Shown: positions 46,412-49,618 of the stretch, one piece after another | Position numbering within the stretch: position 1 is the first letter of the stretch | How the letters are laid out: each line of letters starts with the position of its first letter | Source: Flavobacteriaceae bacterium | GTDB taxonomy: Bacteria > Bacteroidota > Bacteroidia > Flavobacteriales > Flavobacteriaceae | Assembly: GCA_028284745.1 (NCBI GenBank) | Contig: JANQRC010000017.1 | Coordinates: 1 to 64,000, forward strand | Direction of reading: 5' to 3' | Length of the DNA stretch: 64,000 nucleotides | Made by a program: the position numbers and the translations under genes | The notes under the pieces: model-generated | The model's database searches: none | What the model was told of the DNA's origin: nothing | Seen by the model: only the letters and a program-made list of their open reading frames with translations

Positions 46412-46440
46412 ACGCGCCAAAATTTGGCGCGTTTTTGTTT
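46412..46440 (+). terminator. Intrinsic terminator between the PfkB and PurF-like genes
   Basis: Stem ACGCGCCAAA / TTTGGCGCGT (46412-46432) followed by TTTTGTTT. It ends only four bases before the PurF-like ATG at 46445, so it could act as an attenuator for that gene rather than a simple end signal. Confidence 0.8.
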
Positions 46441-46444
46441 CAAT

Positions 46445-48343
46445 ATGAGCGATGCACTAAAACACGAATGCGGAATAGCCATGATAAGGCTGTTAAAACC
46501 GCTAGAATACTACAAGGAAAAGTACGGTTCTGCCTTTTACGGGGTGAACAAGATGTACTTGATGATGGAAAAGCAGCACAATCGCGGACAAGATGGTGCA
46601 GGCTTTGCCAGTATAAAGCTAGACATGCCGCCGGGCAGTCGCTACATAAGCCGTGTGCGCTCTAACAAGCAACAGCCGATCCAGGATATCTTTGCGCAGA
46701 TCAACCAACGTGCTAACGATGAGCTTCTTGCTCATCCTGAGTATACCGACGATGTATCGCTCCAAAAGCAAAACATTCCTTACATGGGCGAATTGTTATT
46801 AGGCCATGTGCGCTATGGTACCTTTGGTAAGAACAGTATCGAAAGCGTGCATCCTTTCCTAAGGCAGAACAACTGGATGCACCGAAATCTCATCGTTGCA
46901 GGAAACTTCAACATGACCAACACTTCAGAGCTTTTTGACAACCTTGTACAATTAGGTCAGCATCCCAAGGAAAAAGCAGATACGATCACCGTAATGGAAA
47001 AGATCGGTCACTTTTTGGACGATGCCGTAGCAAAGCTGTACAAAGAGTTGAAGCAACAGGGCTACACAAAATTAGAAGCCTCTCCACTGATCGCAGAAAG
47101 ACTGAATGTTGCTAAGATCTTGAAGAAGTCTGCTAAAAACTGGGACGGTGGTTATGCGATGGCCGGGCTTCTTGGCCATGGTGATGCCTTTGTGCTTCGT
47201 GACCCAGCAGGCATTCGGCCAGCTTACTTCTATCAAGATGAGGAGGTCGTTGTCGTTGCTTCAGAAAGGCCTGTCATCCAGACCGTTTTCAATGTTTCTT
47301 TTGAAGATATTCACGAATTGGATCCCGGCAAGGCCATCATCGTCAAAAAGAATGGCAGCGTGCATTTCAAAAGGATCTTGGACCCACTAGAAAGAAAAAC
47401 CTGTTCTTTTGAACGCATCTATTTTTCTCGCGGAAGCGACCATGAGATCTATCAAGAGCGAAAGAACTTGGGGCGATACATCTTTGATTCTGTCTTGAGA
47501 GAGATCGATTATGATCTTGTCAATACTGTGTTCTCCTATATTCCGAATACGGCAGAGACATCGTTCTTGGGAATGGTGAAACAAGCGCAAGACTATCTTA
47601 ATCGCCGTAAGGAAAACTGGATCCTAGAGCAAGAGGGCAGCATCGACAAAGAAGCGCTTCACAAAGTGTTGAACATGCGTCCACGCATCGAAAAAGTGGC
47701 CATAAAGGATGTGAAGTTACGAACTTTTATTACTGAAGACAGCAGTCGCGACGACTTGGTCACCCACGTGTATGATGTCACGTACGGCTCTGTGAAGCCC
47801 ACTGACAATTTGGTGATCATTGACGATAGCATCGTTCGTGGAACTACATTGAAGAAGAGTATTTTAAAAATGCTTTCTAGACTAAGCCCGAAGAAGATTG
47901 TTGTAGTTTCTTCTGCACCCCAAATTCGCTATCCGGATTGCTATGGGATCGACATGGCCAGGCTAGAGGGATTGATCGCCTTTAGGGCAGCGCTTGCCCT
48001 CCTAAAAGAGCGCGACATGTACTACATTGTCGAGAAGACCTACTACCAATGTCTAGAACAACTCAAGAAGGACAACCACGAAATGGTGAATGTGGTGCAA
48101 CAGATATATGAGCCTTTCACTTATGAAGAAGTATCTTCCAAGATCGCTGAGTCATTGAAAGAGGATGAGACCGAAACCGAGGTGAGCATCATCTATCAAA
48201 CGGTTGAGAATCTTCATAAAGCCTGCCCTAAAAATTTGGGAGATTGGTACTTTACTGGCAATTATCCTACCAAAGGCGGCAATCGTGTTGTCAATCAAGC
48301 ATTTGTAAACTTTTTTGAAGGAAAGAAGGTAAGAGCCTACTGA
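46445..48343 (+). CDS. PurF-like amidophosphoribosyltransferase paralogue
   Basis: About 632 residues, much longer than PurF (about 500). The N-terminal glutaminase domain has its nucleophile at Cys9 (MSDALKHECGIA), so an eight-residue leader must be removed, as in propeptide-type PurF. HNRGQDGAGFAS and HVRYGTFG are glutaminase motifs; VIIDDSIVRGTTLKK (about 457-471) is the PRPP loop. Flavobacteria commonly carry this long form as a second PurF. The reaction is presumably transfer of glutamine nitrogen to PRPP, but the long form may differ. The open frame extends to 46424, but that start would lie in the terminator. Confidence 0.88.
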   Translation: MSDALKHECGIAMIRLLKPLEYYKEKYGSAFYGVNKMYLMMEKQHNRGQDGAGFASIKLDMPPGSRYISRVRSNKQQPIQDIFAQINQRANDELLAHPEYTDDVSLQKQNIPYMGELLLGHVRYGTFGKNSIESVHPFLRQNNWMHRNLIVAGNFNMTNTSELFDNLVQLGQHPKEKADTITVMEKIGHFLDDAVAKLYKELKQQGYTKLEASPLIAERLNVAKILKKSAKNWDGGYAMAGLLGHGDAFVLRDPAGIRPAYFYQDEEVVVVASERPVIQTVFNVSFEDIHELDPGKAIIVKKNGSVHFKRILDPLERKTCSFERIYFSRGSDHEIYQERKNLGRYIFDSVLREIDYDLVNTVFSYIPNTAETSFLGMVKQAQDYLNRRKENWILEQEGSIDKEALHKVLNMRPRIEKVAIKDVKLRTFITEDSSRDDLVTHVYDVTYGSVKPTDNLVIIDDSIVRGTTLKKSILKMLSRLSPKKIVVVSSAPQIRYPDCYGIDMARLEGLIAFRAALALLKERDMYYIVEKTYYQCLEQLKKDNHEMVNVVQQIYEPFTYEEVSSKIAESLKEDETETEVSIIYQTVENLHKACPKNLGDWYFTGNYPTKGGNRVVNQAFVNFFEGKKVRAY

Positions 48344-48448
48344 CCGAAAAATCACTAGAAAAATATCAAAGTGTGCATTTCGTCGATAAAATATGCTCTT
48401 TATCGGCAATTTCCAATTTTCGCTAGGTTTTGGGGTTACTTTTACAAA

Positions 48449-48523
48449 GCCATAGCATAAGTAGGTTAAGTTCATGGTAAGATTTGGGGCAAAAAGGTGG
48501 ATCTAATCCACCTTTTTATTTTT
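48449..48523 (+). ncRNA. Tandem small RNA-like unit, copy A
   Basis: Begins with the hairpin GCCAT...ATGGT around the loop word AGCATAAGTAGGTTAAGTTC, then AAGATTTGGGGC, then a terminator with a perfect 12-bp stem (48491-48502 with 48506-48517) and a T-rich tail. The core is nearly identical to copies B and C, but the terminator sequence differs while keeping the fold, which supports selection on structure. The upstream promoter region is not shared with B and C. Function unknown. Confidence 0.65.
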
Positions 48524-48606
48524 CTACCCCCATAATCACTCGTCAACTCCCTTCTCAAATAAGTTCCATAACTCTTACACGATCAGAGCCGCGTTTCGTC
48601 CATTTT

Positions 48607-48640
48607 TTTGAGACGCTCGTGATGCTTCTCCCTATATTCG
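48607..48640 (+). promoter_or_regulatory. Promoter of small RNA copy B
   Basis: TTTG (48607-48610), 22-base spacer, TATATTCG (48633-48640). An inverted repeat GCGTTTC...GAGACGC (48591-48616) overlaps the -33 box and is shared with copy C, a possible operator. Confidence 0.6.
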
Positions 48641-48644
48641 GGTC

Positions 48645-48724
48645 GCCATAGCATAAATAGGTTAAGTTCATGGTAAGATCTGGGGCAAAAGGGTAGGACA
48701 TCCGTTCTGCCCTTTTCATCTTTA
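48645..48724 (+). ncRNA. Tandem small RNA-like unit, copy B
   Basis: Same core as copy A with two or three substitutions (for example AGCATAAATAGG). The 5' hairpin pairs GCCAT with ATGGT including a G-U pair. The terminator stem is AAAAGGGTAG / CTGCCCTTTT (48687-48696 with 48707-48716). Expected transcript about 75-80 nt. About 150 bases, including the promoter, are almost identical to copy C. Confidence 0.7.
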
Positions 48725-48831
48725 TACTCTTTATGTGGATCATGTTATTCGACATGAAGGTTTCCCAATAGCCAATACTTCCCGTTACTTTCACGACAGT
48801 TACACGATCAAAGCTGCGTTTCGTCCATTTT

Positions 48832-48864
48832 TTTGAGACGCTCGTGATGCTTCCCCTATATTCG
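48832..48864 (+). promoter_or_regulatory. Promoter of small RNA copy C
   Basis: TTTG (48832-48835), 21-base spacer, TATATTCG (48857-48864). Spacer lengths of 22 and 21 bases for B and C fit a real Bacteroidetes promoter, and the single deleted base (CTTCTCC versus CTTCCC) falls inside the spacer. Confidence 0.65.
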
Positions 48865-48868
48865 GGTC

Positions 48869-48950
48869 ACCATAGCATAAGTAGGTTAAGTTCATGGTAA
48901 GATTTGGGGCAAAAGGGTAGGACATCCGTTCTGCCCTTTTCATTTTTATA
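48869..48950 (+). ncRNA. Tandem small RNA-like unit, copy C
   Basis: Core identical to copy A over the loop word and AAGATTTGGGGC, with the 5' stem ACCAT/ATGGT, and the B-type terminator (48911-48920 with 48931-48940) followed by CATTTTTAT. The next gene (sodA) is on the opposite strand with its own terminator, so the copies cannot be leaders of a downstream gene. Confidence 0.7.
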
Positions 48951-48954
48951 GGGC

Positions 48955-48980
48955 ATGAAAAAACGGGCACTCGGCCCGTT
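48955..48980 (-). terminator. Intrinsic terminator of sodA
   Basis: Stem AACGGGC / GCCCGTT (48962-48968 with 48974-48980), followed on the minus strand by TTTTTTCAT. Lies 30 bases after the sodA stop. Confidence 0.85.
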
Positions 48981-49009: not shown

Positions 49010-49618
49010 CTATTTGTTCGCTTCATACAGCTCGCTTACTTTATCCCAATTGACCACACTGAAGAATTCTGAGATATAATCTGGCCTGCGGTTTTGGTAG
49101 TTCAAGTAATAGGCATGCTCCCAGACATCCAATCCAAGTATGGGAAATCCGCCACAACTCACACTTGGCATTAGCGGGTTGTCTTGATTTGGTGTTGAGC
49201 ACACCTCTACCTTACCGCCTTTGTGCACGCATAGCCATGCCCAACCAGACCCAAATCTAGTAGCTGCCGCTTTGCTGAAAGTTTCTTTGAACCCATCATA
49301 AGATCCATATGCCACTGTAATAGCCTCGGCCAATGCTCCTGAAGGTTCCCCACCGCCATCCGGTGACATCACTTCCCAAAAAAGGCAGTGATTGTAAAAT
49401 CCACCTCCGTTGTTTCGTACAGCCGCATTGTTCATGTCAAGATCGCCCAGAATGTCTTCGATCGACTTCCCAGCTAGATCCGTACCTTCGATCGCTGCAT
49501 TTAACTTTGTCGTGTAGCCATTGTGATGCTTTGTATGGTGTATCTCCATGGTGCGTGCATCCATGTGTGGTTCAAGTGCTTCGTATGCATATGGTAACTT
49601 TGGTAGTTCGAAAGCCAT
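49010..49618 (-). CDS. sodA: Superoxide dismutase (Fe/Mn)
   Basis: 202 residues from the ATG at 49618 ([20 protein letters not shown]); the longer open frame to 49777 is leader. Metal ligands are His in [12 protein letters not shown], His in [11 protein letters not shown], and Asp/His in [27 protein letters not shown] and the GSGWAWLC segment fit the dimeric Fe- or Mn-type; the metal cannot be fixed from sequence with certainty. A good RBS (GAGAAGG) and a TAAATTTG box (49661-49654) lie upstream. Confidence 0.96.

Follow-up and report, generated by a model that had tools for sequence, protein, structure and literature searches.

A multicopy small RNA family of Flavobacteriaceae and its candidate antisense target at the start of an unannotated microprotein gene

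The stretch of 64,000 nucleotides analyzed here as a whole (hereafter, the window) comes from a member of the Flavobacteriaceae and carries, between a purF-like gene and sodA, three similar units that an initial annotation had proposed to be tandem copies of a small RNA. What do these units encode, and on what would their products act? The question arises in a family whose members are major polysaccharide degraders of oceans and fresh water and in which, to our knowledge, regulation by RNA is almost unknown. From a practical perspective, an RNA family found in >80% of the sampled genera, together with an unannotated protein as its candidate target, provides a testable sRNA–target pair in Bacteroidota lacking Hfq, and an explanation of the tandem arrays in the purF–sodA interval would make many genomes annotatable.

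Anatomy of the tandem units

The three units lie on the forward strand at spacings of 196 and 224 nt and, as the initial annotation had described, are built around a common core (Table 1). According to the predicted folds, each has a 30-nt 5′ hairpin (GCCATAGCATAAGTAGGTTAAGTTCATGGT, loop GUAGG) connected by a linker (GTAAGATTTGGGGC) to an intrinsic terminator, which amounts to two hairpins per copy (z of −2.6, −2.7, and −3.5 for the three copies). The core had been called invariant; it is indeed shared, but copy B departs from A and C by a G>A change in the loop (AAATAGG) and a T>C change in the linker. Copies B and C are 96% alike over 97 nt, promoter included, and copy A has in common with them only the core, the linker, and the terminator design, its own terminator being unlike theirs in sequence with the fold kept, as had also been noted. 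Likewise, the promoters recognized ahead of B and C turned out to be near-consensus for Bacteroidota (TTTG / TATATTCG), with a Bacteroidota-like spacing, the TACTTTTA element of copy A being weaker. The imperfect dyad that covers the −33 region of copy B, and that is found again in copy C, may be an operator.

Table 1. Features of the purF–sodA interval in the window.
Feature	Position	Strand	Basis or remark
purF-like gene	46424..48343	+	upstream neighbour; gene order conserved
Putative −7 promoter element of copy A, TACTTTTA	48437..48444	+	sequence; TAnnTT position conserved
sRNA copy A	48449..48524	+	covariance-model E 1.8e-17
Copy A, 5′ hairpin	48449-48478	+	
Copy A, linker GTAAGATTTGGGGC	48477-48490	+	
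Copy A, terminator	48491-48524	+	
Imperfect dyad GCGTTTC...GAGACGC, −33 region of copy B	48591..48616	.	seen in sequence
Promoter of copy B	48603..48640	+	TTTTTTTG 48603-48610, TATATTCG 48633-48640; position conserved
sRNA copy B	48645..48722	+	terminator stem 48687-48716; covariance-model E 5.6e-18
Same imperfect dyad, copy C	48816-48841		sequence
Promoter of copy C	48828..48864	+	TTTTTTTG 48828-48835, TATATTCG 48857-48864; position conserved
sRNA copy C	48869..48946	+	terminator stem 48911-48940; covariance-model E 3.3e-19
sodA	49010..49618	-	convergent downstream neighbour; gene order conserved

Two other ways of reading the units can be ruled out. They are not cis-acting leaders, a point on which we concur with the initial annotation, because every copy is closed by a terminator of its own and sodA, the gene that follows, is convergent; nor are they leaders coding for a peptide, since the length of the linker differs by 1 nt among lineages (GTAAGATTT/GTAGATTT), an indel that would break any reading frame. 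Each unit has a promoter and a terminator of its own and no ORF, and the hypothesis that the units are autonomous small RNA genes arranged in tandem is strongly supported by the promoters of the individual copies and by the family-wide conservation and covarying terminators described below. A further terminator-like hairpin, located between copy C and the end of sodA (window positions 48962–48980), probably serves the convergent sodA.

Distribution and conservation of the RNA family

Within three mismatches, the core is found at three sites of the host genome, all of them the known copies, and nowhere else there (reversed control: 0); at the same threshold, it is present in 43 of 59 genera of the same family and absent from 40/40 genomes of other families of the order. 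At least 117 stretches were recovered by a pattern scan of named genomes, and among the matches listed are Maribacter, Zobellia, Robiginitalea, Aquimarina, Kordia, Arenibacter, Aequorivita, Christiangramia, and others. With a covariance model trained on 26 diverse copies, the RNA was detected in 163 of 199 Flavobacteriaceae genera, at one to six copies each. Searches of the order and of the class with this model gave strong matches confined to Flavobacteriaceae and no convincing copy outside, where the matches were weak and terminator-like, the outsiders inspected (best E ∼1e-5 to 1e-6) being devoid of the core. In relatives, the RNA genes sit in the purF–sodA interval wherever the flanks are visible: at the 132 loci showing one or both neighbours, purF precedes the RNA genes in the same orientation and sodA follows them in the opposite one, without exception. 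In a few genera, extra copies are found far from the others of the same genome (G005:C13:464009 and 472633; G014:C1:980917; G024:C2:1751448; G006:C32:74984; G007:C24:619913).

Across 329 distinct copies, the 26-nt core takes essentially four forms, which differ at two positions. Upstream, a TAnnTT motif stands at a near-fixed distance in all 326 copies with enough upstream sequence (∼20% in shuffles), and in 256 of them precisely 14 nt before the core. The occurrence of the core in 43/59 genera of the family against 0/40 genomes of other families, together with this 326/326 promoter motif, excludes a chance origin of the units. As for structure, the terminator stem diverges yet stays paired, with compensatory changes on both sides in 8 of its 11 pairs, and the structure as a whole shows 49 cells with changes on both sides versus 13.5 in shuffles. 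The 5′ stem, which had been described as varying compatibly (GCCAT or ACCAT with ATGGT), is likewise present, but family-wide it displays no double change, only A-U/G-U alternation at two pairs, and 11 pairs that almost never vary, so that the alignment agrees with its fold, which covariation leaves unproven. One genus of the family, g85, a large sister genus that, judging by its size and diversity, is probably Flavobacterium, has slightly changed cores (CATAACATTAGTAGG..., CATTACATAAGTAGG...).

The copies fall into three classes according to the end of the linker (GGGGC, GGGGA, or GGGAY), each with a different conserved promoter region, which suggests that they may be regulated separately. 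Unlike other copies, those of the GGGAY class carry a long and highly conserved promoter block, TTATTTCnCACAATACCAGTAATTTAGT, suggestive of a putative regulator dedicated to this class. At many loci (e.g., L116 and L149), the copy with TTATTTCnCACAATACCAGTAATTTAGT is the last of the tandem.

In Rfam 15, only a tRNA of the window scored above cut-off, and the units accordingly match no family at or above its curated gathering score, their sub-threshold RNA matches being weak and mostly to terminators. No other description was found in the open literature. The RNA family is real, family-wide, without a match in Rfam, and apparently undescribed.

A candidate target downstream of scoB

The complement of the linker, GCCCCAAATCTW, was searched in 40 genomes, where it matched, beyond the RNA genes themselves, intergenic sites in several genera, some of them in tandem 40 nt apart. 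Several of these sites are located downstream of scoB and ahead of a convergent ABC-transporter gene. Loci L205 and L208 hold one complementary 12-mer each. We then considered 60 loci downstream of scoB that were taken by synteny, without regard to complementarity, and found that the highest-scoring match to the complement of the RNA has a mean of 33.6 on the sense strand, against 20.7 on the opposite one and 21.6 after shuffling. The complementary sites continue into the start codon of an ORF of 33–47 codons that is not annotated. At 41 such ORF starts (5 of which were found via a complementary 12-mer and hence are not independent), the predicted duplex has a mean of −38.6 kcal/mol versus −20.7 for dinucleotide-preserving shuffles and −18.3 for the opposite strand, which it beats in 41/41 loci, and the local match is at or above the 99.5th percentile of shuffles in 35/41. 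In 23 of the 41 loci, a leader hairpin that would present the C-rich seed in its loop (GATTT-CCCC-AAATC) can form. In most of the genera examined, the RNA thus shows conserved complementarity to a translation start encoded elsewhere; since its core hardly varies, RNA and target display no compensatory changes. The extended complement, searched in 60 genomes, returned the RNA genes, the ORF starts, and about six other places versus four for a reversed control, so that no second conserved target of long pairing is apparent.

The product of this ORF has a C-terminus that mostly reads (L/I)TKK(L/I/V)FML, and its stop codon overlaps that of the convergent ABC-transporter gene. Variation rises from codon position 2 through 1 to 3, position 2 accounting in the C-terminal part for 15–20% of the differences and position 3 for 43–55%, and the other frames are mostly closed. 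From this codon-like evolution, we infer that the ORF is an unannotated conserved microprotein family, one without a match in Pfam or NCBIfam. Its C-terminus is basic and moderately hydrophobic (last 18 residues: mean hydrophobicity 0.61–0.89, moment 0.28–0.64, charge +2 to +6). A profile search detected the ORF in 117 of the 199 genera, every one of them RNA-positive, that is, in 117/163 RNA-positive versus 0/36 RNA-negative genera (Fisher p 4e-17, a value that ignores phylogeny), and 46 RNA-positive genomes had no ORF match.

In the host genome, the RNA (purF–sodA) and the ORF (scoB) are on different contigs. The host ORF (MNNSAPQTFLFEEEVELTSFQQLIENTKNTFHLIGKLFFLAKKIVML, 47 codons, G000:C4:18839-18976) offers one short site, GCCCCCAAACCTTAC just upstream of the ATG (GCCCCCAAACCTTACAGACATG behind a TATTTTAG element). 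The duplex predicted at its start, −25.9 kcal/mol, is equalled by ∼17% of the 90-nt tiles of the window, although its local match score of 29 is reached by only 4/8409 tiles; on this sequence comparison, an interaction in the host genome is plausible rather than established. In g85, both site and ORF are absent at 14/14 loci downstream of scoB, though the RNA is kept. The short and weak host site and the retention of the RNA in g85 make further targets or roles beyond the ORF likely.

Mechanism, rival readings, and relation to described systems

The mechanism that we regard as best supported, with a probability of about two in three, is that the units encode multicopy trans-acting antisense RNAs which block translation of the microprotein. 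Each unit would be transcribed from its own promoter up to its intrinsic terminator into an RNA of roughly 75 nt, in which a short hairpin at the 5′ end would be joined to the terminator by a single-stranded, G-rich linker (GAUUUGGGG). This linker would nucleate on the C-rich stretch, predicted to lie in a hairpin loop at about half of the target loci, and pairing would then spread via the 3′ strand of the hairpin, often its loop and 5′ strand as well, over the start codon of the ORF between scoB and the convergent ABC-transporter gene. The resulting duplex would prevent translation initiation. Tandem copies with different promoters could raise the dose and place it under the control of several signals.

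Less probably, the RNA would instead regulate globally, base-pairing through short seeds with many targets of which the small ORF is simply the best conserved. In this regard, the 5′ hairpin and loop are near-invariant beyond what the ORF would need, g85 retains the RNA without the ORF at scoB, and the host carries, immediately before the start of an M14-type carboxypeptidase gene (G000:C3:50353, L212), 11 nt that are perfectly complementary to the linker. However, the duplex predicted for the carboxypeptidase (−37 kcal/mol) is reached by 6/8409 window tiles and is thus not significant genome-wide, which led us to reject it as a host target, and other extended sites are not enriched in the 60 genomes, a result that bears on the extended complement rather than on short seeds.

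Our own first reading was that the transcript downstream of scoB is a sponge, whose tandem antisense sites titrate the RNA off other, true target mRNAs. Several genera do have two or more sites ∼40 nt apart (two to four in some), the terminator-like hairpin that follows scoB in L202 and L203 points to a transcript of its own, and the presence of the RNA in g85 without the scoB-downstream locus would fit as well. We now deem this reading unlikely, because the start codon at which the sites stop belongs to an ORF that evolves in a codon-like manner; moreover, in the 60 genomes, the extended complement was found in no other mRNA.

Less probable still, the frozen 5′ hairpin could be a protein-binding site, with the tandem copies titrating the protein. 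The initial annotation had allowed for base pairing or protein titration alike: base pairing is now supported by the antisense match that is conserved at the start of a small ORF in many genera, and titration has no support. The 11 almost unvarying hairpin pairs and the multiplicity of copies would suit a protein ligand, but a family search of the host genome covering Hfq and RRM_1 proteins found neither (RRM_1 was recovered from a Bacteroides genome used as control), and the antisense match gives another reason for the hairpin sequence to be frozen. Finally, that these near-identical tandem repeats are repeat DNA without function can be dismissed, as it is contradicted by a core kept while spacers diverge, by covarying terminators, by a fixed promoter position, and by the conserved gene order of the interval.

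With regard to the antisense mechanism, described systems provide several points of comparison. Qrr, LhrC, and OmrA/B are redundant, near-identical sRNAs, partly in tandem and with separate promoters, and the present copies resemble them in each of these traits; their sequence and hosts are nevertheless unrelated, the present host has no detectable Hfq, and the most conserved partner of the present RNA is a microprotein gene. Such multicopy families are known (PMC11697453), and the nearest one described in the phylum is FopS (RF04319) of Bacteroides thetaiotaomicron, a set of 14 paralogous sRNAs with many SusC targets, which has a single-stranded 5′ seed and the RRM protein RbpB as a partner and represses translation by pairing close to the start codon (PMC11697453). 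Both families are multicopy, paralogous, short, from Bacteroidota, ended by an intrinsic terminator, and associated with (here predicted) pairing near a start codon. However, the present RNA has a predicted 5′ hairpin and a G-rich linker, another sequence, a purF–sodA tandem, and a host in which no RRM protein was found; FopS itself was rejected as a match (16.1 bits against a cut-off of 56, E of 9, for copy A only, and not listed for copy C or the relatives). Within the same bacterial family, Rfp18 is a characterized sRNA of Flavobacterium psychrophilum, conserved in Flavobacterium, whose third stem-loop pairs with metalloprotease mRNAs (PMC9723704). The present RNA, with two stem-loops, is unlikely to be Rfp18, from which it is set apart by the description of Rfp18 and not by sequence.

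In type I toxin–antitoxin systems with a trans-encoded antisense RNA, such as IstR-1/tisB, OhsC/shoB, and OrzO/zorO, the mRNA of a tiny protein is matched at its leader or start by an antisense small RNA. The same layout is found here, with an ORF of <60 codons whose leader or start is matched by an antisense RNA (weakly so in the host genome) and a very small protein whose C-terminal segment is basic and partly hydrophobic. On the other hand, that segment is only moderately hydrophobic, the RNA exists in one to six copies, and rather than lying opposite or adjoining the ORF, the RNA genes occupy a separate conserved chromosomal locus (purF–sodA versus scoB). We only tentatively envisage a family-wide, largely dedicated RNA–microprotein circuit, in which separately regulated tandem antisense RNAs would silence a possibly membrane-active microprotein at another locus, as a split, type-I-toxin–antitoxin-like switch operating without Hfq or RRM chaperones. 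The ORF may have regulatory sequences of its own, as two recurrent elements upstream of its promoter, TTTCATCGA in 16/41 loci and GTTAAAA in 24/41 (e.g., L202, 1400–1480), look like a regulator site.
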